From assembly GCF_000949635.1 (NCBI RefSeq), contig NZ_BAFN01000001.1:2531673-2595672 (forward strand): a stretch of 64,000 bases of DNA, given 5' to 3'. Positions 26,133 to 48,966 of this stretch are shown here, in pieces (within the stretch, counting starts at the first letter, position 1; the number at the start of each line of letters is the position of its first letter). The position numbers and the translations under genes were made by a program. The DNA is from Candidatus Brocadia sinica JPN1 (GTDB lineage Bacteria > Planctomycetota > Brocadiia > Brocadiales > Brocadiaceae). The notes below the pieces were generated by a model. The model was not told where the DNA came from. It saw nothing but the letters and a program-made list of their open reading frames with translations, and did no database searches.

Positions 26133-26745
26133 TTCCTTCTCCTCCTCACACTATTGGAAATTGAGCCATGCCGCCGAGAACACTCCCAGCACACCTAGCC
26201 GGCTTTTTAAGACACTTTTTATATGTCATGTAATTGATTCATTGTCAACAAATTATTTTTGTAATTCCAGTAACATACCTATAATGCTGCTTTATATATT
26301 GACAACAATAAATTCTTGTAAAATTTCGCCTTGTCGTGTGTCTTTTTGTCAGTTCAAATTAATCAAGAATGACATTCAATTTCAGCCATCTTTAGGCATG
26401 AAAGGCCATTAGTATATAGCGGGAGGGGGGTGAGGCCCCATATCGCTAACTTAAAATGACGGATCAATTTAACCGTATTATTGAATAACGAATATCGAAT
26501 ATCGAACAAGGAATTTCGAATTATGGGTTTTCTTATCCTCCTTTGTACGAATAATTCTGACGGCAAAATCTATGAAGCGTTCTTCAAGATCAAAAAGTTT
26601 TCTATTATCCTTCGACATTCATTATTCCTTGTTCGATATTGGAATCCTTATAAAAAGATAGTCCAATCTTTCTGTATTGCATATCTCATTCGTTTCAGAT
26701 ATAGTAATAAACCTGATACAATAAATTTTATTGGGAAAAAAACGA
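26133..26745. other. Intergenic region with an inverted-repeat element
   Basis: No gene is apparent in these 600 bases. The first part should carry the promoter of the small exported protein. The second part holds the inverted repeat listed separately at 26498-26640. Confidence 0.5.
26498..26640. repeat. MITE-like inverted repeat
   Basis: AATATCGAACAAGGAAT at 26498-26514 is matched exactly by its reverse complement at 26624-26640, with about 110 bases between. Palindromic elements built around CGAACAAGGAAT occur as dispersed repeats in many environmental bacterial genomes. No transposase is inside. Confidence 0.6.
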
Positions 26746-28251
26746 ATGATGGGAGATGATTTGAATAAACCCGATGCATCTCTGAAAAATGACATAACTA
26801 TCACCGCTGAAGAGCTGGCAAAGAAAAATAAAGAACTTCAAGCTGAAATTGTTGAGCGCAAAAGGGCGGAGGAAGAACTTCGCAAGTTATACCGCGCTAT
26901 AGAACAAAGTTCAAGTACGATTGTGATTACGAACAACTGGGGCATTATCGAATACGTAAACCCCAAGTTCACTCAGTTAACAGGCTACCGTCCCGAAGAA
27001 GTCATAGGGAAAAATCCACGCATCCTAAAACCCGACAATGTATCGTCTGAAGAATTCCGTCAATTGTGGCAAACTATTACCGCGGGAAGGGAGTGGCGGG
27101 GAGAATTTTGTAATAGAAAAAAGAATGGTGAACTCTATTGGGAATTCGCATCCATTTCTGCAGTAAAGAACTCAGAGGGTGTCATCACCCACTTTGTTGC
27201 CGTTAAAGAAGATATTACCGAGCGCAAGCGGGCGGAAGAAGAAAGAAATAAACATATTAAGGAACTCGAGGATTTCATGTCCTATTCCACAACCATGAAC
27301 GATGCGACAACAGAAGATGCGGTGTTTAAACACATGGTTCTTGCCTTACGAAAATATTTCGACCCGGATATTGTTGCTGCAATAATGCTGGACAGAGAGA
27401 GAAATATGCTGTATGTGCCTATTATTGATCCCCCTGTGCCTGTAAATGAACTCGTCAGGAACGAGGTCATCCTTGATCCCGCTTTATGCCGTGTAATTAA
27501 GACAGGCAAGGAGTGTTTTATAAAAGATATAACCAAAGATGCTTCCTGTGAGTGCGTAGTCCGCAAAAATGAAGAGGTTGGATATTTGTGCATTCCTTTA
27601 ATAGCAGGTGGGATAACGTTTGGAATCGTTATGCTGATAAAAAAGGATATTCGTTGCTGGGACGATGAAAAGACCCACAGGCTTATATCAAACTATGTGG
27701 GGCTGACCGCTTTGTCTCTTCATAGACTGGAGCTCCTGGATATCGCGAAACATAGAAACATAACAGACGAGCTTACGGGGGTATACAATAGAAGATTCTT
27801 TAATGAGATACTGGACAAACAGTTGATCCTGGCAAAAAGACGTAACGAACACGTTAGTCTCCTTATTCTGGATTTGGATCATTTCAAAAATTTAAATGAC
27901 GCATACGGAAATAGGGTAGGTGACCGTTTATTGCAACAAATAGCCAGGGTTCTGAGTGATTCTGTAAGTAAATCAGATATTGTTGCGTGGTACGGCGGCG
28001 AAGAATTTGCCATTATTATGCCCACATTGTTTGCAACAAAAGCCATTGTGAAGGCAGATGCAATTCGGAGAATCATTGAAGCCACGGACTTTGATGATAT
28101 TGTATCGGGACAGACCCTTAAAATAACCATAAGCATTGGGATCGCTTCATACCCGGAGCATGGGACAGAACAAGAAACCCTGATAAAGCTTGCAAACAAG
28201 GCGTTGCATAAGGCCAAAGAAGAAGGAAGGAACAGGGTAGAATCGCTTTAA
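26746..28251 (+). CDS. PAS-GAF-GGDEF diguanylate cyclase
   Basis: The protein of about 501 residues has a short coiled N-terminus and a PAS/PAC domain near 40-165 (IVITNNWGIIEYVNPKFTQLTGY; given in two parts it is the PAS core). A GAF domain follows near 180-325, then a GGDEF domain near 345-500 with intact YGGEEFAIIMP. The RxxD inhibitory site upstream of GGEEF is not obvious. It makes cyclic di-GMP from GTP under control of the sensory domains. This is relevant because c-di-GMP riboswitch candidates lie 10 and 20 kb away. The start could be ATG 26746 or TTG 26761, the latter having GGGAG at good spacing. Confidence 0.92.
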   Translation: MMGDDLNKPDASLKNDITITAEELAKKNKELQAEIVERKRAEEELRKLYRAIEQSSSTIVITNNWGIIEYVNPKFTQLTGYRPEEVIGKNPRILKPDNVSSEEFRQLWQTITAGREWRGEFCNRKKNGELYWEFASISAVKNSEGVITHFVAVKEDITERKRAEEERNKHIKELEDFMSYSTTMNDATTEDAVFKHMVLALRKYFDPDIVAAIMLDRERNMLYVPIIDPPVPVNELVRNEVILDPALCRVIKTGKECFIKDITKDASCECVVRKNEEVGYLCIPLIAGGITFGIVMLIKKDIRCWDDEKTHRLISNYVGLTALSLHRLELLDIAKHRNITDELTGVYNRRFFNEILDKQLILAKRRNEHVSLLILDLDHFKNLNDAYGNRVGDRLLQQIARVLSDSVSKSDIVAWYGGEEFAIIMPTLFATKAIVKADAIRRIIEATDFDDIVSGQTLKITISIGIASYPEHGTEQETLIKLANKALHKAKEEGRNRVESL

Positions 28252-35357: not shown

Positions 35358-35700
35358 CCCAAGGTTGGGTAACGCTGAATGCCCACAACGTAATCTCCCC
35401 ACGTCTCCCTTTGAGACTGTGTCGTAATTACCGCGAAAGGGGGGGGATTAATTGTGCTATGCCAAAAGAAGAACAGCAGACGGTAAGCGTTTCCTTAGTA
35501 TTTTTTCCTAAAAAAGTATCATCTTTTTCATAAGTACCTGAAGAAACAACATCTATTCAAACTGAAGTACGAATTCAAATAGCAAGTGATATTGAACTCG
35601 GACGTCACTTGCGAATTGAGGGTAACGGAACACGCCAGCTTGGTAGCGCCTACAATTGTTGTATAGCGAGTGTTCTGCGGTAAATCCAGGCATGTTCATG
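35358..35700. other. Intergenic region before the IS element
   Basis: The 340 bases hold no clear gene. A short 24-codon frame beginning MPKEEQQTVSV near 35460 may be a relic of a lost gene. Nothing else is recognised. Confidence 0.35.
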
Positions 35701-37353
35701 TTAGCCCGACTTTCGCAATTCGCACTCAAAAACGGTTATTTTTGGGCATGTATAGCTGGGAAACCCTTGATATTAAAGGGGTGAATTTTCAAAACGGCTT
35801 GTAGTGCCGACCTAGCCTATTGACGCATGCAAGGGAAACTGCGAAAATGCTTGCATGTTTCTCCGAGAAAAATCACGGACGAAGGATGGAAAAACACACC
35901 GGTATTGGAGCGTTGTAGAGAACCGCCGGGTCAGCGGAAGAAGAGTGGTGCAGCGGCAAGTGCTCTACCTGGGAGAACTCAATGATAACCAACGGGCGGG
36001 ATGGATTCGAACGATAGAGGCGATTTCGGGTGCAAAACCCAAAGCAAAACAACTGGCGTTATTTCCGGATGACTAGGAAGAATTGCCCATACTGGGCTGT
36101 GAAACCATCCGGGTGAGGTTGGACAAAATAGAATTGCGCCGTCCGTGTGAATGGGGTGCGAGCTGGTTGGGATTGTATGTGTGGAATCTTCTGGAACTGG
36201 ACACCTTTTGGAGAGGGCGTTTGCCGTCAAGCCGCAAGGGGACAAGCTGGCTGAATATGCTGAAGGCGCTCGTCTGTTACCGGCTGATAGATCCGGGAAG
36301 CGAATTTCGTTTTCACCGTGAGTGGTATGTGCGGAGCGCAATGGGAGAGCTGTTGGGGGAAGATGATTCGCTGGCACAGAAGGACAAGCCGTATCGTTGT
36401 TTGGATTTGCTGCTTGAGCATCGCGACGAGCTGTTTGGTTTTTTAAAAGGGCAATGGGGCAAGCTGCTTGGCGCGAAGTATGATGTGCTGCTGTATGATT
36501 TGACGAGTGCGTATTTTGAAAGTGATCCGCCACCGACGGGATCTGGGGGTAAAAAACGGTTTGGGTACAGCCGGGACAAACGTTCAGATTGCGTTCAGGT
36601 ATTAACGCCGGAAGGATTTCCCGTGGCCTACGAAGTATATCCCGGGAATACAAGAGACACTGCGACACTGGAGGAATTTCTGGATAGGATCGAAAAGCAG
36701 TATGGGAAATTCCGGCGCACCTGGCTCATGGATCGTGGTATTCCAACGGAGGATATGTTGGAAAAGATGCGTTCCCGAGGGATTGATTATTTGGTTGGCA
36801 CCCCGAAGGGACATTTGACCCGTGTTGAAAAACCGTTGCTCGAACAGACCTGGATGCAGGCGCGAGAAAGCGTCAGCGTGAAAAGTCTTCAGCAAGAATC
36901 GAAGTTCTACGTCTCTGTGAAAAGCCATGACCGTGTAGCCAAGGATCGCTTTCCATCCGTCCCATATGGCACCAATTGGAAAAGAGAATTGAAGCCCATA
37001 TTTTTGTCTCCTTTTTGGCTTTTTGTCTCCACACGGCGTTGCGAAATCTTGCGCGGGAACGAGCCGCAGGGCTGACATCCGAAGCCATTTTGGAAAAAAT
37101 GTCGAACATTCAAATGATTGATGTTCATTTACCAACCACGGATGGCCGTCACATTGTCATGAGCCGATATACACAGCCAGAAAAGGATGTTTCTCTCCTT
37201 TTGGCACAATTGGGATTGACGCTTCCTGAACAACCTCCGCCCAAGGTTTATGCCTCAGGACAGGTCGGTCTGTAGTGCCGACCTTTTTCCACGATCCCTT
37301 GAATTTACTGGCTTAGCGGCTTATACACCCCTCGAATTGCGAAGGTCTGGTTA
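35701..37353 (+). mobile_element. Decayed IS1634-type insertion sequence
   Basis: Imperfect terminal inverted repeats of about 20 bases bound the element. On the left is TTAGCCCGACTTTCGCAATT at 35701; on the right, the reverse complement of the sequence ending at 37353 reads TAACCAGACCTTCGCAATTC. The inner transposase is broken (see the pseudogene). About 155 bases of 5' non-coding sequence precede the transposase. A 5' fragment of a second copy lies at 47596. No target duplication is evident. Confidence 0.8.
35855..37275 (+). pseudogene. IS1634-family transposase, broken by a stop and an internal deletion
   Basis: The frame starting at 35855 (MFLREKSRTKDGKTHRYWSV) is cut by an in-frame TAG at 36074-36076. 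It continues in the same frame from 36083 with typical transposase motifs: YDLTSAYFE, RFGYSRDKRSDCVQV-like KKRFGYSRDKRSD, and TWLMDRGIPT. Near 36948 about 100 residues of the family sequence are missing, and the downstream part (LEKRIEAHIFVSFLAFCLHT and MIDVHLPTTDGRHIV) lies in another frame ending at 37275. The DDE-type enzyme is therefore inactive. Confidence 0.88.
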
Positions 37354-37503
37354 GGAAATTTTCTGATATAAATTTATATTTTTTCATTGACACATATGTA
37401 TGAATTTTAGAGAATTCCCGTTAATTCCTGAGCTAAACCACCCGCTAGCCACCAGCTACGCTGGTGGTACTGAGTTAATGCAAGGAATTTCAAATTGCAG
37501 TTG

Positions 37504-37554
37504 TAGCACGAACTTCAGTTCGCTTACATCCCATGCGAACTAAAGTTCGCGCTA
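37504..37554. repeat. Long hairpin directly before intron copy 1
   Basis: Arms 37504-37523 and 37535-37554 are 20 bases each and pair with two mismatches (TAGCACGAACTTCAGTTCGC against its partner), with an 11-base loop. The group II intron starts at the very next base. Palindromes with GCGAACT-AAGTTCGC arms are REP-like. A smaller palindrome (CCACCAGC-TAC-GCTGGTGG) lies about 50 bases upstream. Confidence 0.8.
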
Positions 37555-38283
37555 GTGCGCCTGAGAGTGCGCAATGTCAGAGGGGTGAAAGTCCCCTTCA
37601 GGGAAAACGCTTTCCAAACCTGTAACCGACCGTAACTGCGACACCGTGAGGTGTGGTGGAGAGCAACGGGAGGTGAAAAGCTGGTTCGTAGGATAACAAA
37701 CTCGATTCGGCCTGTTGTAACGGTGAGCCTGCTAGGGAATGGCGAAGCCCAGACCTTTGAGAGGAGAAAAAAGAAGAAAGGAAGCCTCATAAGCTGAGGG
37801 GTAGCGTGATAAAGCGATGGTAGGGAACAATGGGTGGTTGGAGACGGAATGGCTGGAAGGCAAGGTGCATGAATCAGGAATACCTGATAGAGGGAGTGAC
37901 TGTATCAGGAGATAGAGCCTCCATAGGAGCGAAGAGACACCGTAATGGGTGTGGAGCAAAGGGAGGCAGGAAGGTGGAGGTATGAAGTGGACAAGTCAGG
38001 AAGCCAAACCAATGTGAGTGGCCGAGATGCCTAAGCAAATTGGAGAAATCCAGAGAGAACAGGATTGAACTTGGCTTGTAGCGGAATACTTGCTGACGGT
38101 CGATATAAGATGAATGATGAGAAGCGCTGCCATCATTATTAATCTTGGGTTGTTCACGGTAATCACAGCCCATGTATTAATCTGTCAATCCCGAAGGGGT
38201 AACCACTGACTGGAGAGCCGTATGCGGGAGATCCGCCTGTACGGTTCGGAGGGAGGGGAGGCGAAAGCCTTCCCTACCCCTAT
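37555..38283 (+). mobile_element. Group II intron without an intron-encoded protein, copy 1
   Basis: The 729-base unit starts GTGCGCC, matching the GUGYG 5' consensus. It ends with a domain V hairpin (GAGCCGTATGCGGG to TGTACGGTTC near 38215-38247) carrying the AGC triad, then a domain VI hairpin with a bulged A seven bases from the 3' end at ...CCCTAT. Domain I-type sequences such as GGTGAAAGTCC and CGTAACTGCGACACCGTGAGG are present. Domain IV holds no reverse transcriptase; a start like ATGAAGTGGACA is stopped within 12 codons. The copy at 47886 is nearly identical. It would need a maturase in trans to move. Confidence 0.87.
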
Positions 38284-38334
38284 CGTTGAAAAAGTTGCCG
38301 AAAAGGCCTGATTTAAACGACAACAAAGAAAGAC

Positions 38335-38455
38335 ATACGATAAGGGCAAACCCTGAGTGATCAGGGGACGCAAAGGAAAGGGTCTTGATAAGCCGTTGAA
38401 ACGGTTTAAACAGTTTCAGCGGCTTATGGGAAAGATAGCCTTACTGCCGAAGATG
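38335..38455 (+). promoter_or_regulatory. Cyclic di-GMP-I (GEMM) riboswitch aptamer
   Basis: The sequence has the GEMM-I landmarks in order: AAGGGCAAACC at 38342, GGGGACGCAAAG at 38363, GGGTCTTGA, an extra stem (AAGCCG...CGGCTT), and GATAGCCTTACTGCCGAAG at 38434. These match the conserved P2 tetraloop receptor, the G that stacks on c-di-GMP and the closing strand. The aptamer's 3' strand is also the 5' arm of a terminator, so ligand binding should favour read-through into the large secreted-protein gene. Copy 2 is at 48843 on the other strand. Confidence 0.85.
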
Positions 38456-38492
38456 TTTTTAGGAAAATCTTTGCAGTAAGGCTTTTTTGTTT
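38438..38492 (+). terminator. Riboswitch-controlled intrinsic terminator
   Basis: GCCTTACTGC (38438-38447) pairs with GCAGTAAGGC (38473-38482) and is followed by TTTTTTGTTTT; an inner AAGAT/ATCTT pairing extends the hairpin. The first arm is part of the c-di-GMP aptamer, so the two folds exclude each other. This predicts a genetic ON switch for the gene at 38589. Confidence 0.85.
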
Positions 38493-38588
38493 TGTAGGAA
38501 GATTGTTTTAACCACAGAGACACAAAGAAAAGCCTTCTGGATTACGGACATTTTCGCCGGATTCATCTTGAAAAGGAGGGGTAATTTT

Positions 38589-41500
38589 ATGAGGAATAGA
38601 TCCACTTTATTATTGGCCGGTCTTGTTGCAGCAATGCTTGCCACGTGGTTTATAGACAGTTCAAACCTCGCAAGTGAGGATAGAACAGAACAGAACAGAA
38701 CAGAACAGAACAGAACAGAACAGAACACAAACACCTTATATTGTCCTCACATAAAATATGGTCTGGATTGGCAGACATCCGTTCAGATCACGAATATTGA
38801 ATGCAGTTGTAAACAGAAAAGGGTTCGGGTAAAACTCTCCACCCATGATAATAACGGTACATTTACCGGTACTATAAAGAATGTTAGGAAACTCAAGGCA
38901 AATGAAACAAAGGTTATTGATCCCCAATCATTGCCTCCCAGTGCGGCATCTTTAAAGATTGCACCCAACGGAAACCTCATATCCCACGTCATTTACAGGA
39001 CAAACGACGGTAAAAAATCAGAAGTAGTCCCTGCCGTAAAAGCGCCATCCATGCAACTGGACTTTCCCGTATTGGCCGATTATGAAGACGTTTTTATCTA
39101 CGAAACGATCACCCTTTTAAATCCAAATCCAACCCCTGCAAGTATCGAGATGATAGCCTTAGATAAAAACGGATATGAAATAGAGCGCATGGCAGTATCA
39201 CCCCTTTCTTCGTGGGAGAGCAATACCATCGCTCTCGTAGATATCTTTGGACCAAAAACATTAAAAGACCTTTCAACGGTAAGGGTTGTTTCAGACACCA
39301 ATATTGCCGGAATTCAGCTTGTGGATTATCCGGGGAATGACCTCGTTGGTCTGCCGGCGCTGACCGTTGCCAGTAAAGGCTGGACATTTCCCATTGCAAC
39401 GGAAGGCGGCAACCAGGCGCTCTGGACAAGGGTTGGGGTGATAAATCCCGGAGGCGAAACTGCTGATATCAGTGTTGAGGCCTTCGATGCAAGTAACAAT
39501 TCCCTTGGAGCCATCGACAGAAAAAGTCTTTTACCCGGTGCGATATATTTTACCGGCACAGAAAACACAAGTACGGATGGTGGTGTCATACCATTAAATG
39601 CCGCTTATATAAAGGTCACCGCTGATAGACCTATAAGTGGATTCGAGGTTGTTGGCGTTATAGATGGTAGCGGTCTTGCGGCAGTTATGGGAATTCCTGA
39701 GGAAGACCTGACCGCAGTGGGATTTGAGATAACAGGCACCAATGACAGTGGTGTACTGAATGCATATTTGATGGTGAGAATGGAAGATGGGAGTGTGAAG
39801 TCAACTGCGATGAGTTTGGAAAATGAAGAGTGGAACAAAGTTTTAAAACTAATCATGGAATCCGAAATAGCAGGAGATTTTACACTAAAAAAGGATTTAG
39901 CAAGAGAAAGAGATGCCTTTATACCCTCCTATTACCCCTCTGACGTTAAACCTTGTGAAGCTAAATTAATTAAAAAGCTAGAGAAAAAAGGAGCTAAAGT
40001 AATATATTTAAATCCTAGCAATGAAAAAAAACCAGTTTGTACACAAGGAACAGGATGTGGTGAGTGGGAATGTTATGATGAAAGAAAAGTTGCTGATAAA
40101 GTGGCAGATATGCTTTACGCTGAAGGATACTCAGTAATTGTGGATTACGACCAATATAATGCAGGAAAGAGGGCGAATGAGGAAAGTACACTACCAAATG
40201 TATTTGTATCAATCCACTCCAATGCAACGACTGAAGAACTTACAAATATTTGCAAAGGAAAACAAACCGGTCCAGAAACTTGGTGGGAAAATAGTAATAC
40301 AGGTGATGAGACTTTGTCACTAAATATTCAAAACGCACTTGTGGCAGAACTGAGAAAAAACGAGTACAAGGGCAATTTAAACCGTGGAATAAAGGACTGG
40401 AATAAAAAGGAATGCCGTAACTGTGATAATGATAACTGTAGTAATCCGAAAAATTGTAAACATCCGATGTGGCCTAATTGGTATGAGGCCAAAATGCCCG
40501 CGTGCTTAGTTGAGACACTCTTTCACGATAATCCAGAGGATGCATATATTTTATGTTCTAAGGCAGAAATAGTTGCACAAGGAATTGCTGATGGAATAAT
40601 AACATTTCTTACTGCCACACCTCCGCCTTCTCCCTTCTTGTCGTTCCCATTACGAGGCAAAAATGCTTATAACGCGGAGATAATATCGGTTTTTGATCAT
40701 TCAATGAAAAAGAAAATGAGGTATTGTCCCGACAACGTTAAAGATTCTTTACACAGTTCGGTAATTGCATATACAGGTGAAAAAGGAACAGAACCAAATG
40801 AAAAAGAAAGTGGTAAGTCTGGTACGAATTGTCCTGGCCATAAAATTTATAGTTTTTTTAAGAGTCAGGATGATAAAACACCATTTTATATAAATGGCCA
40901 TTACGTTGGTACAAAAAATAGTGGACCTAATACATTGAATTATGATGGCCATCCGGGATATGATTATAATATTGAGCATGTTGATGGAAAAGATGTTCTT
41001 GCGGCAGGAACAGGAACGGTAATTGTGGCAGATTGGGAAAATACAGAAAACCATGACAAAGGACTAGGCCTTCGCATAATTATAGATCACAATAACGGTT
41101 ATCGTACTATATATGGACATTTATCATCTGTAAAAGTACAAAAGAATGACAAGATAACTACAGTAGGGCAAGTTATTGGAGAATGGGGTAGCACGGGTAA
41201 TTCAGGTGGGCGCCATCTTCATTTTGAAGTGCGAACTGAAGATGATATATCAGTCGATCCCTATGGTTGGGATCAGGATAAATTAGGAGACGACCCATAC
41301 ACACTATATAATCCAGGAGTAGTTAATTATACACTTTGGGTGACAACAGCCATCCTTCCAAAAATTACCTCAATTAGTCCGACGAGCGGAGTTTCTGGCA
41401 CTTCAGTAACAATAAATGGTACGAACTTTGGTACAACGCAAGGGACGGTAAAATTTGGCACAGCGGAAGCCACCGTTACTTCATGGAGTGATACCAAAAT

Positions 41501-43706
41501 TGTTGCAACTGCACCTGCTGGTACTGGAACGGTAAACGTGACGGTAACAACAAATGCAGGAACAAGCAATGGGGTACCATTTGCATATACCACTGTCACT
41601 ATCATCTTTCCCAATGGAGGCGAACACTTACTAGCTGGCAGCGAACAAACAATTGAATGGAAGGTAGATGGTGATACTTCACAAATTAAAGACTTCCTGG
41701 TCGCTTCCTCCATCGATGGAGGAACCAACTATACAGCAATAGGTACGGTAACTGCTACTGACCGCTTTTTGTCTAAAAAGATACCTTCCTATGTATTATC
41801 TACGCAGTGTAAGGTAGCGGTGGTTGCCCATGATGCTTCAGGACGCACTTTGGCAGGGGATGCCAGTGATAATAACTTTACCATATCAAAATGTCAGATG
41901 CCTGGTACATTCACCCTTACAGCCTCTCCTGGGTGTAACGGCAGTAGTTCTCAGATATTGTTAAGCTGGACTGGTTCGAGTGACGCAACATCATACGATC
42001 TCTATCGTAACGGAAGCTCGTATAAAACCGGATTAAATGGTACACAATACACAGATAAGTCAGTAACATCAGGAACGATATATACCTACTACGTGACAGC
42101 AAAAAACTCCTGCGGTTCCACCAAATCCAATACCGCCTCTGCAACAGCAAACGATTGTAACACAACATTCACCGTTACTTATCCCAATGGAGGTGAGACA
42201 TGGCAGACAGGGAGTACCCAGAAAGTTACGTGGACTTACAAGGGTGACCCAGGACCAAATGTGAAGATTGAACTTCTAAAGGGCGGTGCTTGGAACTACA
42301 CCATTGCTTCAAGTACATCGATAGGAAGCAATGGAAGCGGATCATATATCTGGACGGTTCCTAAAGATCAAGCTTCGGGAAGCGATTACAAGATCAGAAT
42401 CACCAGTACGAACGTTTACACTGATACGAGTGATGGCAATTTTACGATAGGAGGCACTATTCCAAGCATTGCCTCAATTAATCCTATGAGTGGAACTGCT
42501 GGCACTTCAGTAACGATAAATGGTAAGAACTTTGGTACAACGCAGCAGGGTACAAGCACAATAAAATTCGGCATTGCAACAGCAACTGTTACTTCATGGA
42601 GTGACACCAAAATTGTTGCAATTGCGCCTACTAATAGCGGAACGGTTAACGTGACGGTTACCACAACCTCAGGAACAAGCAATGGTATACCGTTTACTTA
42701 TAATGAAAATCCACCGCACATTGACAGTGTGAGTCCGAATCCGGTGATAGGTTCAAACAGCCCCCAGATCGTCACGCTTTACGGCCAGTACTTTGCATCG
42801 GGATTGACGGTGACGGTTGGCTGGACTGGGGGTTCAAAGGTGTTGAGCAGTTCACAGGTATTTGTGGACAGTTCAACCCAGGTGCGTATCTCAATTACCA
42901 CAACCACCGATCCGGACACGTGGACGGTAAAGGTAACGAATCCTGACGGACAGAGTTCCAATACGGCGTACTTCCAGGTGATCGCGCCACCACCAAATCC
43001 ACCGCACATTGACAGTGTGAGTCCCAATCCGGTGATAGGTTCAAACAGCCCCCAGATCGTCACGCTTTACGGCCAATACTTTGCATCGGGATTGACGGTG
43101 ACGGTTGGCTGGACTGGGGGTTCAAAGGTGTTGAGCAGTTCACAGGTATTTGTGGACAGTTCAACCCAGGTGCGTATCTCAATTACCACAACCACCGATC
43201 CGGACACGTGGACGGTAAAGGTAACGAATCCTGACGGACAGAGTTCCAATACGGCGTACTTCCAGGTGATCGCGCCTACCACCGAGGTAATTGTTGACGA
43301 TCAAAGCTCTGGTTTCAGCAAGTACGGAGGCTCTTCTTACTGGTATGAGGCATGGATTGGTTACAATGGTCACATGTTTTGGACTACTAACAATCAAAAT
43401 ACAATTTATAATTCTGCAAAATGGCAGCCAAATCTCTCAAACGGAGGGGCTGGATATTATGCAGTGTATGTCTATATTCCAAGTGATTTTTCTAATACAA
43501 CGAATGCAACCTATACCATTTTTCACAACGGTATTACCGATACTCGTTCGGTTAACCAAAATAATTATTCTGACCAGTGGGTTTTGTTGGGAAATTTCTA
43601 TTTCTCCGCTAATGGAAGTGAATATGTTGAATTGGTTGACAAAACTGGTGAAACATTTAATACAAAAAAGATTGGCTTTGATGCAGTAAAATGGGTTAAG
43701 CAGTGA
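38589..43706 (+). CDS. Giant secreted multi-domain protein with two peptidoglycan-hydrolase domains
   Basis: The 1705-residue protein starts at an ATG with a strong AAGGAGGGG site. After a signal peptide come three RTEQN units encoded by nine copies of a 5-base repeat. Then follow a beta-rich region (50-400) and an Amidase_3-like domain near 468-677 (VFVSIHSNA; VETLFHDNPEDA), whose first zinc histidine appears missing. An M23 peptidase with intact HPGYDY and HLHFEV lies at 788-880. Next come an IPT/TIG domain, a FPNGGE module, an Fn3-like domain, a YPNGGE module and a second TIG. Two near-identical 92-residue repeats (1375-1563) and a golvesin C-terminal-like domain close it. It likely acts outside the cell in wall remodelling or adhesion, under riboswitch control. 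Confidence 0.85.
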   Translation: MRNRSTLLLAGLVAAMLATWFIDSSNLASEDRTEQNRTEQNRTEQNTNTLYCPHIKYGLDWQTSVQITNIECSCKQKRVRVKLSTHDNNGTFTGTIKNVRKLKANETKVIDPQSLPPSAASLKIAPNGNLISHVIYRTNDGKKSEVVPAVKAPSMQLDFPVLADYEDVFIYETITLLNPNPTPASIEMIALDKNGYEIERMAVSPLSSWESNTIALVDIFGPKTLKDLSTVRVVSDTNIAGIQLVDYPGNDLVGLPALTVASKGWTFPIATEGGNQALWTRVGVINPGGETADISVEAFDASNNSLGAIDRKSLLPGAIYFTGTENTSTDGGVIPLNAAYIKVTADRPISGFEVVGVIDGSGLAAVMGIPEEDLTAVGFEITGTNDSGVLNAYLMVRMEDGSVKSTAMSLENEEWNKVLKLIMESEIAGDFTLKKDLARERDAFIPSYYPSDVKPCEAKLIKKLEKKGAKVIYLNPSNEKKPVCTQGTGCGEWECYDERKVADKVADMLYAEGYSVIVDYDQYNAGKRANEESTLPNVFVSIHSNATTEELTNICKGKQTGPETWWENSNTGDETLSLNIQNALVAELRKNEYKGNLNRGIKDWNKKECRNCDNDNCSNPKNCKHPMWPNWYEAKMPACLVETLFHDNPEDAYILCSKAEIVAQGIADGIITFLTATPPPSPFLSFPLRGKNAYNAEIISVFDHSMKKKMRYCPDNVKDSLHSSVIAYTGEKGTEPNEKESGKSGTNCPGHKIYSFFKSQDDKTPFYINGHYVGTKNSGPNTLNYDGHPGYDYNIEHVDGKDVLAAGTGTVIVADWENTENHDKGLGLRIIIDHNNGYRTIYGHLSSVKVQKNDKITTVGQVIGEWGSTGNSGGRHLHFEVRTEDDISVDPYGWDQDKLGDDPYTLYNPGVVNYTLWVTTAILPKITSISPTSGVSGTSVTINGTNFGTTQGTVKFGTAEATVTSWSDTKIVATAPAGTGTVNVTVTTNAGTSNGVPFAYTTVTIIFPNGGEHLLAGSEQTIEWKVDGDTSQIKDFLVASSIDGGTNYTAIGTVTATDRFLSKKIPSYVLSTQCKVAVVAHDASGRTLAGDASDNNFTISKCQMPGTFTLTASPGCNGSSSQILLSWTGSSDATSYDLYRNGSSYKTGLNGTQYTDKSVTSGTIYTYYVTAKNSCGSTKSNTASATANDCNTTFTVTYPNGGETWQTGSTQKVTWTYKGDPGPNVKIELLKGGAWNYTIASSTSIGSNGSGSYIWTVPKDQASGSDYKIRITSTNVYTDTSDGNFTIGGTIPSIASINPMSGTAGTSVTINGKNFGTTQQGTSTIKFGIATATVTSWSDTKIVAIAPTNSGTVNVTVTTTSGTSNGIPFTYNENPPHIDSVSPNPVIGSNSPQIVTLYGQYFASGLTVTVGWTGGSKVLSSSQVFVDSSTQVRISITTTTDPDTWTVKVTNPDGQSSNTAYFQVIAPPPNPPHIDSVSPNPVIGSNSPQIVTLYGQYFASGLTVTVGWTGGSKVLSSSQVFVDSSTQVRISITTTTDPDTWTVKVTNPDGQSSNTAYFQVIAPTTEVIVDDQSSGFSKYGGSSYWYEAWIGYNGHMFWTTNNQNTIYNSAKWQPNLSNGGAGYYAVYVYIPSDFSNTTNATYTIFHNGITDTRSVNQNNYSDQWVLLGNFYFSANGSEYVELVDKTGETFNTKKIGFDAVKWVKQ
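38682..38726 (+). repeat. Pentanucleotide tandem repeat AGAAC x9 inside the coding region
   Basis: Nine perfect copies of AGAAC lie between codons 32 and 46 of the giant secreted protein, just after the signal peptide. Because the unit is 5 bases, gain or loss of one copy shifts the frame and would stop translation early. This is the form of a slipped-strand phase-variation tract. Confidence 0.95.
42711..43276 (+). repeat. Two 278-base direct repeats within the giant secreted-protein gene
   Basis: Bases 42711-42988 and 42999-43276 differ at about two positions. Each encodes one Ig-like IPT/TIG-type module beginning PPHIDSVSPNPVIGSN. The near identity shows a recent duplication or ongoing homogenisation. 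Confidence 0.95.
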
Positions 43707-44386: not shown

Positions 44387-47300
44387 ATGAGAAACACCGT
44401 ATTTAGCCTTGTGCATGGCAGATCTGGTATTTTGTGGTGTATGGCAGTTCTTTTATCGGTAACATTCCTAGCAGAAGCAATTCTGGCTGAACAGGAGGGG
44501 GTGGATAATGTGAGGTTGGACGAAACGCGCCCAACGGAAATCTGCAAACTCCTCACAAACAAAACTGCCTCCGAAAAAGCACAAATCAAATCCCGTGAAA
44601 TTGCCAGGCAGGATTTTAAGGGTGAATACATAAACACGCAGTACGGCGTAAAGGTGGAAATAATCGGTGAAGTAAAAGAGATTAACATCAATGGACAGAG
44701 CGGTATAGAACTCTTTGCAAAGGCGTGGAAAGGCGACAAACAACTCGGTTTCGGTAAAGACGGCTCGGTGGAAATAGAAAGGTTTAGGATATTTAACCCT
44801 CCCATTCTGGTGGACGACCCGAATGGTGATATTGTAAGAGAATGGACGGATGAAAAAACCGGCGAACTAAAACAAAGAAAACTAAGAGAAGACCCGATTG
44901 AAGCAATACGGCAGACAGTTGCCCATAATGTCAAAATTGTCGGAAAAGAGAACGCTCAAATAGTAATTGGTAAAATCGGCAATACCACCTCCACTTTTTA
45001 TCCAGACGCTCACCCAGAAAACACAAGCCACGATGCAATGTTATACACCAGTCCTAATGCTTCTTGGGATACTGTTCACGATACGGCAAATGCAGACGGA
45101 GCACTTGATAATTACTCCGGTCCAGACCGATTCGTCTATTCTGGCAAAGATGGAGATAATTTCAGGATAATAAGATTCCAAACTCTTTTTGACACTTCAG
45201 CTATTGGTTCAGATACTGTAAGCTCCGCCACCGCTTCTTTGTATGTTAATTTGGTGAATAATGGCGATAACGACGGTGATGATTACATAGCGGTTGTTTC
45301 TTCCAATCCTGCTTCTAACACAGGTGCGGCTGTTGGTGATTATTCTTTAATGGGAACAACTGCTTATTCCAATACAATAGACTTATCTTCCATGTCCACA
45401 GGTGATTACGTTGACTGGACGATTAATGCGACCGGTTTGGCGGCAATTAATACCAGCGGAATTACCAAATTCGGTTTTCGCGAAGGGCACGATATTATTG
45501 ATAGTGCTTATGCCGGAGGATTTGATACAGTAAACTCTATTGTTACCTACGCGGCTGAAGCATCCGGTACCGCCAACGATCCAAAACTTGTAGTGGTACA
45601 TAGTACGCCTACCCCAACACCCACGCCGACACCAATCGACACCTCCGCCCCAAGCGGTTCAATAAGCATCAACAGCGGCGATTCATATACTAATTCAACC
45701 AGCGTTAACCTGACGCTTTCAGCAACGGATAATGTCGGGGTGACGGGTTATTACCTCTCTACCAGTTCAACCAAGCCCTCTGCCTCAGATTCTGGCTGGG
45801 TATCCGTCTCTTCCACCACCAGTTTTAGTACCAGTATTTCATATGCATTAAGCAGCGGTGACGGTAGTAAGACGCTCTATGCCTGGTATAAGGATTCTGG
45901 GGGAAATGTGTCAGATACCGCCAGTGATTCCATTATTTTAGACACCACATCGTCAACAGTGACTATTACTAACCCCACCACAGAGTCTACCTATACGACA
46001 ATGAGTAGTACAATAAACCTAGGAGGTACCGCTTCGGATAGCACCAGCGGCGTAAATAGTGTGACGTGGAGCAATAATAGGGGAGGTATCGGCACGGCAG
46101 GTGGAACGACGAACTGGATCGTTTCCAGTATAAGTCTGTCATACGGAGATAATATAATAACGGTAACAGCTACGGATGGGGCGGGCAATCCGGGGAAAGA
46201 TACAATAACCGTAAATTATATTCACGTAGATACACCACCACCAACGCCATCACCAACTCCCTGCACGGACGATTATGAGCCAAACAATAGCTTTAGCACG
46301 GCGTATGGTCCATTGACGTCAGGAAACAGCTATACTGGCAGGATATGCAGCGCCTCAGATGTGGATTATTTTAAGATAATAGTAGACAGCGCCGGTACGA
46401 TCTCGCTGACGCTTGGAGTGCCGTCCAACAGGGATTACGATCTTTACCTCTACGATGCATTACAAAATGAGGTTGCACTTTCACAAAAAGACACGGGAAT
46501 TACTGAAACAATATCATACGATACATCTACGACAGGGACATATTACATAAAGGTCGTTGGCTTTCAAAATGACTACGACGAGAGTCAAGCGTATACACTA
46601 TCAGGGACATGGTCTATATCCGATGAAACAGGCGATATTTATGGCAGGGTAACAGACGCAAAGGCAGGTACTGGTATTAATGGGGCGACAGTATCGACCG
46701 ATACGGGTAAATCTACCACAACGAGCAGACAGAGAGGACAGGATGGAGCTTATGTGTTGCAGGATGTAACCGCAGGGGTACGCACGATAACCGCAACGGC
46801 ATCTGGCTATGCATCGTCTTCTCAATCTGTCACGGTTGATTCTGGTGAGCAAGAAAGGCTTGATTTTGTATTGACATCTGCTACAACTCCTCCACCGACA
46901 CCAACAACAACTGTCTCACCTGTGCCAACACCCACATTTACCGGCAGCATTGAAGGCGAGGTCGTGAATCAGACAGATGGGAAACCTATTGCAGGTGCAA
47001 GCGTGGTGCTGGATTCAAAGGCGAATGTAACCAAGACCGATACAATTGGTCATTATCGTTTTGATAATGTATCTGTCGGGCAGCATAAGATAACAGCAGG
47101 GGCAAAGGGCTTCAAACAATCAGAAATAGAGACAATTACGGTAATTGCAAATCAAACAGCACATCAAAACTTTTCTTTAATGCCGTTGACTACCCCAACA
47201 CCAGTGGTATCGCCAACACCAATATCATCGCCAACGCCGGAAGTAATGCCCACACCGCCATGTGAGGCAGAATTGATGGAGGTATTTCCGGTAGAACTCG

Positions 47301-47566
47301 AACTTGAAAAAGAGGAGAGCAGTGAGGTGACGATTACTATCACGTGCGAGGATGGTATTACCCCTGTTCCCGGAGAAAAGGTGAAGGCAAAGGTCAAACC
47401 TGGCGGCGATATTGTGACGGTCTCTCCGTCAAACGCAGCTACCGATTCCAACGGTCAAGCCGTATTTACCATTACTGCTAAAAATAAGGCAGGAAAAGCA
47501 AAAGTGATGTTCAAGGACCAAGCCGCTGGCCTTAAGACAAGGGTAAAAGTGAAGGTAATAAAATGA
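44387..47566 (+). CDS. Large secreted multi-domain protein with PPC and carboxypeptidase-regulatory-like domains
   Basis: The 1059-residue protein has a signal peptide (about 1-34) and an N-terminal region of unknown type. A DNRLR/beta-sandwich-like part (200-400) ends in a TPTPTPTPTP linker near 408. Ig-like modules follow (415-620), then a pre-peptidase C-terminal domain near 625-740 (DDYEPNNSF; DVDYFKI; YYIKVVG). Two carboxypeptidase-regulatory-like domains lie near 749-830 (GDIYGRVTDA) and 853-930 (GSIEGEVVNQ), and a C-terminal Ig-like domain near 958-1059. Pro-Thr linkers join them. It is probably exported and involved in surface structure or adhesion. The MITE sits between it and the gene remnants upstream. 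Confidence 0.85.
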   Translation: MRNTVFSLVHGRSGILWCMAVLLSVTFLAEAILAEQEGVDNVRLDETRPTEICKLLTNKTASEKAQIKSREIARQDFKGEYINTQYGVKVEIIGEVKEININGQSGIELFAKAWKGDKQLGFGKDGSVEIERFRIFNPPILVDDPNGDIVREWTDEKTGELKQRKLREDPIEAIRQTVAHNVKIVGKENAQIVIGKIGNTTSTFYPDAHPENTSHDAMLYTSPNASWDTVHDTANADGALDNYSGPDRFVYSGKDGDNFRIIRFQTLFDTSAIGSDTVSSATASLYVNLVNNGDNDGDDYIAVVSSNPASNTGAAVGDYSLMGTTAYSNTIDLSSMSTGDYVDWTINATGLAAINTSGITKFGFREGHDIIDSAYAGGFDTVNSIVTYAAEASGTANDPKLVVVHSTPTPTPTPTPIDTSAPSGSISINSGDSYTNSTSVNLTLSATDNVGVTGYYLSTSSTKPSASDSGWVSVSSTTSFSTSISYALSSGDGSKTLYAWYKDSGGNVSDTASDSIILDTTSSTVTITNPTTESTYTTMSSTINLGGTASDSTSGVNSVTWSNNRGGIGTAGGTTNWIVSSISLSYGDNIITVTATDGAGNPGKDTITVNYIHVDTPPPTPSPTPCTDDYEPNNSFSTAYGPLTSGNSYTGRICSASDVDYFKIIVDSAGTISLTLGVPSNRDYDLYLYDALQNEVALSQKDTGITETISYDTSTTGTYYIKVVGFQNDYDESQAYTLSGTWSISDETGDIYGRVTDAKAGTGINGATVSTDTGKSTTTSRQRGQDGAYVLQDVTAGVRTITATASGYASSSQSVTVDSGEQERLDFVLTSATTPPPTPTTTVSPVPTPTFTGSIEGEVVNQTDGKPIAGASVVLDSKANVTKTDTIGHYRFDNVSVGQHKITAGAKGFKQSEIETITVIANQTAHQNFSLMPLTTPTPVVSPTPISSPTPEVMPTPPCEAELMEVFPVELELEKEESSEVTITITCEDGITPVPGEKVKAKVKPGGDIVTVSPSNAATDSNGQAVFTITAKNKAGKAKVMFKDQAAGLKTRVKVKVIK

Positions 47567-47595
47567 AACATGGGGTTCAATATACTTGCCTTTGT

Positions 47596-47833
47596 TAACC
47601 CGACTTTCGCAATTTGCACCCAAAAACGGTTATTTTGGGCATGTATAGCTGGGAAACCCTTGATATTAAAGGGGTGAATTTTCAAAACGGCTTGTAGTGC
47701 CGACCTACCCTATTGACGCGTTCACTGAAAACTGAGAAAATGTTTTCATGTTTTTACGGGCAAAATCACGGATGAAAGATGGCAAAACGCACCGTTATTG
47801 GAGCGTGGTGGAGAATCGTCGGGTGAGCGGGGG
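47596..47833 (+). mobile_element. 5' fragment of a second IS1634-type element
   Basis: The sequence from TTAACCCGACTTTCGCAATT at 47596 follows the left end of the IS at 35701 closely, including the TGTAGTGCCGACCTA segment and the first 25 or so codons of the transposase (MFLRAKSRMKDGKTHRYWSV). It stops abruptly at about 47833 and changes into a different repeat. It is a truncated relic. Confidence 0.85.
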
Positions 47834-47885
47834 AGGGCGTGCCTTGAAGTATGGAATACCTGAGTGGTTGAAAATACCACCTCTG
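47833..47885 (+). repeat. Dispersed repeat between IS fragment and intron copy 2
   Basis: GGCGTGCCTTGAAGTATGGA and the following bases (...GGTTGAAAATACCACCTCTG) match at about 80% the sequence at 58174-58226 after murA. A short hairpin (GTGGT...ACCAC) lies at its end, and the group II intron starts right after CTCTG. Confidence 0.6.
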
Positions 47886-48619
47886 GTGCGCCTGAAAGTG
47901 CACAATGCCAGAAGGGTGAAAGTCCCTTTCAGGGAAAACGCTTTCTGCCCTGTAACCGACCGTAACTGCGACACCGTGAGGTGTGGTGGGGAGCAACGGG
48001 AGGTGAAAAGCTAGTCCGTAGGTTAACAAACTCGATTCGGCCTGTTGTAACGGCGAGCCTTCTAGAGAATGGCGAAGCCCAGACCTTTTGAGAGAAGAGA
48101 GAAAAAAAAGAAGGAAGCCTATCAAGCTGAGGGGTAGCGTGATAAAGCGATGGTAGGGAACAACGGGTGGTTGGAGGCGGAATGGCTGGAAGGCAAGGTG
48201 CATGAATCAGGGATACCTGATAGAGGGAGTGACTGTATCAGGAGACAGAGCCTCCATAGGAGCGAAGAGACACCGTAATGGGTGTGGAGCAAAGGGAGGC
48301 AGGAAGGTGGAGGTATGAAGTGGACAAGTCAGGAAGCCAAACCAATGTGAGTGGCCGAGATGCCTAAGCAAATTGGAGAAATCCAGAGAGAACAGGATTG
48401 AACTTGGCTTGTAGTGGAATACTTGCTGACGGTCGATATAAGATGAATGATGAGAAGCGCTGCCATCATTATTAATCTTGGGTTGTTCACGATAATCACA
48501 GCCCATGTATTAATCTGTCAATCCCGAAGGGGTAACCACTGACTGGAGAGCCGTATGCGGGAGATCCGCCTGTACGGTTCGGAGGGGGGGGGAAGGCGAA
48601 AGCCTTTCCTACCCCCTAT
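47886..48619 (+). mobile_element. Group II intron without an intron-encoded protein, copy 2
   Basis: The 734-base unit starts GTGCGCC and ends ...CCCCCTAT. It matches copy 1 (37555) at nearly every base, including domain V (GAGCCGTATGCGGG to TGTACGGTTC) and domain VI. It also lacks a reverse transcriptase. Its 5' exon (ACCACCTCTG) differs from that of copy 1, so this is a separate insertion event and not part of a larger duplication. Confidence 0.87.
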
Positions 48620-48801
48620 CCTAACAGTCCAGTACTCATACTTTTTCTCTGAAGTTTATGCACGGCCCATCATTAAATATCCGCACTAAAAGCCGTCTTA
48701 TTTTACGGCTTTAGTACGGATAATACTCTTACTGGCGACTACTATATGCCCATTTCGGCGTATAATGCATGATTTTCAGGTCACAATCGTTTTTAACTCA
48801 T
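48620..48801. other. Region with a long hairpin between intron copy 2 and riboswitch copy 2
   Basis: No gene is visible. Bases 48679-48722 form a long hairpin (ATCCGCACTAAAAGCCGT paired with ACGGCTTTAGTACGGAT, 8-base loop). On the minus strand this would lie downstream of the riboswitch, where a regulated gene is expected but absent. Confidence 0.5.
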
Positions 48802-48855
48802 AAAAAAAAGCCTTACTGCAAAAATGTTCTCTTAAAACATCTTCGGCAGTAAGGC
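48802..48855 (-). terminator. Terminator of riboswitch copy 2
   Basis: On the minus strand GCCTTACTGC (48855-48846) pairs with GCAGTAAGGC (48819-48810) and runs into eight T. Sequence and layout copy the terminator at 38438. Confidence 0.85.
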
Positions 48856-48966
48856 TATCTTTTTCACTAAAGGATAAGGTATCGTCTTAAACTACATCCC
48901 TGTGTGTTTAAAAGACCCGTTACTTTGCGCCCCCCGATTACTCAGAGTTTGCCTTTATCGTGATTT
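48843..48966 (-). promoter_or_regulatory. Second c-di-GMP-I riboswitch aptamer, orphan
   Basis: Read on the minus strand, the landmarks AAAGGCAAACTCT, GGGGGGCGCAAAG, ACGGGTCTTTT and GATAGCCTTACTGCCGAAG appear in GEMM-I order, close to copy 1. The terminator overlaps the last block in the same way. Downstream on this strand are only a hairpin, the antisense side of intron copy 2 and an IS fragment. Its target gene seems lost. Confidence 0.78.

Follow-up and report, generated by a model that had tools for sequence, protein, structure and literature searches.

The leader under study, in a 64,000-nucleotide stretch of the genome of Candidatus Brocadia sinica JPN1 (hereafter the window; Table 1), is confirmed by family membership as a genuine c-di-GMP-I riboswitch. 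It is very probably a transcriptional ON switch and one of ~54 copies of a cassette that serves a broad surface regulon. With 56 similar switches in the genome, the data suggest that c-di-GMP, acting through RNA, switches on many proteins that are secreted or sit at the surface.

Aptamer and terminator in the focal leader

Compared with the family model RF01051 by cmscan, the focal leader scored 57.0 bits (gathering score 35; E = 1.7e-8) over the complete model, positions 1-87, and it retains the ligand-contact residues which, in name and numbering, we take to be G20, A47 and C92. A sequence-only reading had placed this leader in the c-di-GMP-I class from an ordered set of GEMM-I landmarks and had proposed an Infernal comparison as the check; all the landmarks were found in the sequence, and the comparison bears out the class. 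A chance or degenerate match is ruled out by the score together with the recurrence of such leaders across the genome.

The last landmark was also said to double as the first arm of an intrinsic terminator, and it does. GCCTTACTGC pairs with GCAGTAAGGC in a hairpin followed by a T run, with a folding energy of -25.1 kcal/mol when taken by itself, and six bases (38439-38442, 38444 and 38445) are paired both in the aptamer and in the terminator arm. Aptamer and terminator are mutually exclusive, so that bound ligand should give read-through. The ON logic proposed from the sequence is supported by this computed identity of the aptamer 3' strand with the terminator 5' arm; ligand binding and read-through are inferred.

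At low c-di-GMP, the terminator would form from the aptamer 3' strand and the GCAGTAAGGC arm, and transcription would end ahead of the gene. At high c-di-GMP, the folded, ligand-bound aptamer would keep that same strand in P3, the polymerase would read through and the large secreted protein would be produced. Note that RNAfold prefers the terminator state of the ligand-free, finished focal RNA by 18.1 kcal/mol; given this preference, the choice is presumably kinetic, and the decision between termination and read-through would fall while the RNA is still being transcribed.

TTGAC occurs at most 110 nt upstream of 33 of the 56 aptamers, compared with 210 of 2000 random stretches, an enrichment by which most switches seem to own a promoter. 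The focal switch is among the other 23, and no sigma-70 consensus promoter was found at 38150-38620; it may therefore use an atypical or distant promoter. The same observations could mean that a group II intron took the promoter, leaving the gene unexpressed and the switch a silent relic, since 50 bp separate the aptamer from the end of the intron, and the ortholog in another Brocadia genome (G001) has CTTGACA upstream. However, the 1705-codon frame is intact, as are aptamer and terminator, and a promoter may be of a non-consensus kind or sit within the intron or ahead of it, so that we consider such silencing unlikely and retain a working ON switch as the preferred reading.

Table 1. Features of the window around the focal switch, in window coordinates
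Feature	Coordinates	Strand	Evidence or remark
PAS-GAF-GGDEF protein	26731..28251	+	GGEEF motif; about 10 kb upstream; possible ligand source
Group II intron copy lacking a reverse transcriptase	35699..38284	+	3' end 50 bp upstream of the focal aptamer
c-di-GMP-I (GEMM-I) riboswitch aptamer	38335..38451	+	RF01051 covariance match and G/A/C ligand-contact positions
Intrinsic terminator	38438..38492	+	Arms 38438-38447 / 38473-38482, then T run; 5' arm is the aptamer 3' strand
Gene for 1705-aa secreted multidomain protein	38589..43706	+	Signal peptide, N-domain, Amidase_3, M23, TIG, golvesin C-terminal
Perfect AGAAC x9.2 tandem repeat	38682..38727	+	TRF score 92, 100% matches; in the CDS just after the signal peptide
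N-terminal domain without Pfam match	38718..39878	+	56-79% identity to counterparts in four further anammox genomes
Amidase_3-like domain	40080..40601	+	48.5 bits; first zinc-binding His replaced by Asn (alignment to 4rn7)
Peptidase_M23 domain	40950..41261	+	78.9 bits; H-x3-D and HxH motifs
Following gene, partly related to the anammox S-layer glycoprotein Kustd1514	44387..47566	+	208.8 bits, below the model cut-off of 1400
Second group II intron copy	47593..48620	+	95% identical to the first copy over the 3' part
Second c-di-GMP-I switch	48841..48962	-	RF03167 59.3 bits, RF01051 57 bits; same platform including terminator

The focal gene and its surroundings

The likely start of the gene behind the switch is the ATG at 38589, which has GGAGG just 5' of it. 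The signal-peptide-like start and the domain matches agree with the earlier view that the target is secreted, and Pfam matches comprise, besides the Amidase_3 and Peptidase_M23 domains, TIG repeats, a Kre9/KNH-like Ig domain and a golvesin C-terminal domain. The claim of two peptidoglycan-hydrolase domains holds for one of them and is weakened for the other. The hallmark motifs of Peptidase_M23, H-x3-D and HxH, are intact as HPGYD and HLH. Amidase_3 scores well above its cut-off of 27 bits, with a shorter piece slightly below it (26.1 bits), but NPSNEK stands in the alignment where 4rn7 has DPGHGG, the motif that carries a zinc-binding His. The first zinc-binding His is missing, which makes the activity of this domain doubtful; judged from the alignment, one of the two focal hydrolase domains looks catalytically impaired.

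The first ~400 residues match no Pfam family, and the predicted structure of this N-domain, with a mean pLDDT of 44, is too poor for a fold search. In the four orthologs the N-domain is fused to other enzymes: two M23 domains in G001, an alpha/beta-hydrolase in G003, M23 with PA14 in G020 and an M6/M12-type protease in G016. The focal protein belongs to a secreted family with exchangeable catalytic domains; a search of genome contigs returned no named relatives of the giant protein as such. A c-di-GMP-I switch lies just upstream of two of the four orthologs, both from Brocadia (G001 and G003), and none was found in the upstream stretches read for G020 and G016. The G003 ortholog has two c-di-GMP-I switches in tandem ahead of it (L055/L267). 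Within the focal gene, 42707-43283 holds two 288-bp direct repeats, 98% identical, which we read as a recent duplication of a TIG module.

The AGAAC tract that follows the signal peptide has 7.2 copies in the G001 ortholog (L266), where, in a draft genome, the signal-peptide frame breaks off before the rest of the protein. A non-triplet tract that is in frame here, together with an out-of-frame relative, is as expected of phase variation, and the focal gene is possibly phase-variable, two states having been seen, one of them in a draft genome. A repeat scan with imperfect anchoring found no such tracts at the starts of the other switch-controlled genes; its only further hits were AAGA x4, a long way behind two switches.

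Two ORF-less intron copies in direct orientation flank a 9.3-kb segment that contains the giant gene and the S-layer-like gene, and the first of them is split by a DDE-transposase insertion at about 35937-37552. A functional link of intron and riboswitch, as in allosteric ribozymes, was rejected: the focal intron ends before the aptamer begins, and the other runs antisense to its switch. An intron-domain motif, used without calibration on the window's own copies, was found at none of 82 loci of the genome, and blastn with the intron gave, among the matches listed, none beyond the stretch that also matches the insertion. The introns beside both window switches are thus treated as coincidence.

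The sequence-only reading had missed the second switch of the window, as well as the 54 others in the genome. Downstream of this second switch comes a group II intron copy in antisense, and no plausible gene. At the corresponding site in congeners, a subtilase comes next in two of the four cases where the match ran through the switch, with other genes elsewhere; given the subtilase in these relatives, the window copy looks orphaned. A GGDEF cyclase had been pointed out as lying nearby. It is present upstream of the focal switch, to which it may or may not be linked; the genome has 17 GGDEF matches, this one included.

The set in the genome and among relatives

The genome (4.08 Mb), which two hydrazine synthase alpha domain matches identify as that of an anammox organism, contains 56 RF01051 matches at E <= 0.001, of which 55 exceed the gathering score. 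By script, the terminator 5' arm is the aptamer 3' strand in 51 of them; in 3 more, the covariance match ends early and the same strand and hairpin are found there, bringing the total to 54. Hairpins with a T run at or below -17 kcal/mol accompany 54 of the 56 switches, compared with 17 of 400 random 190-nt stretches drawn from the window, which itself contains two switches. The cassettes have a median pairwise identity of 72%, with paired changes in the hairpin in two of them (C1:3485240 and C1:2104847), and the G/A/C contact residues are found in 54 of the 56 matches (51 by script, 3 by eye).

Several members depart from the common form. C1:568048-568160 (L048) has A at position 20 and a lipoprotein-like gene behind it. 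C1:2104847-2104936 (L052), at 33.6 bits below the gathering score, has U at position 92; the ORF behind it carries response-regulator, PAS and GAF domains and seems to run into a GGDEF domain (C1:2108184, 1483-aa open frame), so that a feedback of this switch on c-di-GMP synthesis is possible. C1:10559 and C1:4031780 (L205 and L209) are without the common terminator, lie ahead of giant LamG proteins and possibly use another platform. GTTTAAAC palindromes, often repeated, occur in the P3 loops of 20 of the 56 switches. Two pairs of switch loci, 13664/35985 and 20403/42059 (C1, about 13.6-20.5 kb and 36.0-42.2 kb), are almost identical, which suggests a duplicated block. A mobile cassette carried by viruses was discarded, an 18-mer of the cassette giving 0 matches among viral contigs.

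RF01051 matches number 19-45 in each of ten other genomes of the genus, 1-28 in the other 22 genomes of the family and 0-11 in 26 genomes of the order's other families. Counts within the genus include 45 in Ca. B. pituitae, 42 in carolinensis, 37 in Brocadia sp. WS118 and 20 in sapporoensis; beyond it, we counted 28 in Jettenia ecosi, 18 in Kuenenia hertensis and 5 in Scalindua sediminis, and further out 1 in a Thermodesulfovibrionales genome and 0 in a Bryobacterales genome. Among 149 sampled Planctomycetota, five family members had from 5 to at least 27 matches and none of the other 144 had more than 5 among the 27 candidates scored per genome, all of these being lower bounds (the genome studied here gives at least 27 in that survey vs 56 in the full count). 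The maximum was 10 among 61 genomes from the phylum of a Thermodesulfovibrionales genome (E <= 1e-8). To the sequence-only reading, direct c-di-GMP control of such a surface protein had seemed undescribed in this lineage, which proved too narrow rather than wrong, the set being genus-wide. At loci from the family's other genera (L278, L292, L293, L294, L302, L303 and L307), a separate terminator lies behind the aptamer, its own 5' arm resembling the aptamer 3' strand; these platforms could be OFF switches or collapsed tandems.

The genes behind the switches are enriched for secreted products: most copies of the cassette stand in front of secreted or surface proteins, and some in front of regulators. 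Signal-peptide-like starts were found, by a home-made rule, in 31 of 47 first genes of at least 100 aa vs 55 of 206 background ORFs taken from the same stretches and scored by the same rule (odds ratio 5.3, p = 8e-7), the first genes including non-independent paralogues and several small or doubtful ORFs. Pfam matches downstream range from LamG/Ig giants, RCC1 proteins with carboxypeptidase-regulatory domains, SBBP propellers, DUF11, RHS, beta-helix proteins and cytochromes to sigma-54 activators, a LuxR-type regulator, UDP-glucose pyrophosphorylase, an ABC-2 exporter, radical SAM, PqqD and a caspase-like protein. At least 15 of the 56 downstream proteins have a homologue right behind a switch, in a comparison of 126 loci that were picked by the switch motif and are hence biased to switch-bearing loci; the weakest of these homologues, for C1:2104847, has 20% identity.

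One abundant GEMM RNA is merRNA; the term reportedly occurs in a Bdellovibrio paper. The ~54 near-identical terminated leaders, and the second window switch without a plausible gene behind it, could be viewed in this way, the c-di-GMP-I RNA being chiefly a source of short terminated leaders, 54 of which would together bind and buffer free c-di-GMP with minor read-through. We hold this to be very unlikely since, besides the orphan, nearly every switch has a close ORF downstream on the same strand, with signal peptides enriched among these, and the switch is retained ahead of orthologous genes. Control of the genes behind remains our preferred reading of the set.

Relation to known switches and meaning for Brocadia

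The focal match resembles RF01051 in being full-length, well over the gathering score and with its contact residues kept, and it differs in the repeated, lineage-specific expression platform and, in the set, the often long P3 extension with GTTTAAAC repeats (20 of 56). RF03167, c-di-GMP-I-GGC, whose name presumably denotes G in place of A47, matches the second window switch and that of G001 with scores a little over its cut-off. This variant identity was rejected, as the defining base is absent, both window switches having A there: at the place of GACGCGAA in the RF03167 consensus, the genome has CGCAAA (or CGCAAT, CTCAAA).

GEMM-I switches are also found in many copies per genome in Geobacter (reportedly 30 in G. 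uraniireducens), with the same fold, and in GEMM-I a change of G to A at position 20 makes the difference between cGAMP and c-di-GMP. That the focal switch senses another dinucleotide such as 3',3'-cGAMP, which Geobacter GEMM-I switches favour according to a review (PMC8683041), is highly improbable, the discriminating position being G in the focal switch and in 55 of the 56 matches (three of these were missed by the regular expression and read by eye as G) and A only at 568048.

The Bc2 RNA of Bacillus thuringiensis is an experimentally shown ON switch for the surface adhesin cap (PMC4933901). It shares with the leaders described here the c-di-GMP class I aptamer, the ON logic through loss of a terminator and a surface adhesion protein as target; it differs in being one switch, Gram-positive and experimental, whereas ~54 copies are predicted here in an anammox planctomycete. 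Two genome-wide studies (PMC12452182, PMC9943018) cover tandem or antisense c-di-GMP switches, and the terms Brocadia, Kuenenia and Planctomycet are absent from their main texts. A search of the open-access literature, with subscription journals largely outside it, found no description of a c-di-GMP riboswitch regulon in Brocadia, anammox bacteria or Planctomycetes. Neither the riboswitch class nor its ON logic is new; the novelty is the size and uniformity of the set.

The genome has 9 PilZ matches, so that predicted RNA receptors exceed PilZ domains by ~6:1, a comparison that covers PilZ among the protein receptors. Through such a set, c-di-GMP would control a broad surface regulon directly via RNA, plausibly for aggregation. 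Anammox granules serve in wastewater treatment. Their aggregation has been linked to c-di-GMP, and an article by Guo from 2017 reportedly bears the title 'Role of c-di-GMP in anammox aggregation'. A correlation of c-di-GMP with EPS is stated in a review (PMC11224092). The switches may have a role in aggregation. A more far-reaching picture, which we offer tentatively and would sooner doubt than endorse as a whole, is that in Brocadia RNA, not protein, may be the main c-di-GMP receptor. One ON cassette would have been multiplied to ~54 copies and would wire c-di-GMP directly to a regulon for surface and secretion, which drives the formation of granules and takes in sigma-54 regulators and possibly, as feedback, a diguanylate cyclase gene; the focal gene would have a second gate, phase variation by repeat length, choosing the responsive cells.

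The ~54 predicted ON switches are a defined list of targets in an organism not readily open to genetics, and a testable one because each switch can be assayed in vitro or in E. coli. If true, the wiring proposed here would make for an unusually RNA-centred second-messenger network.
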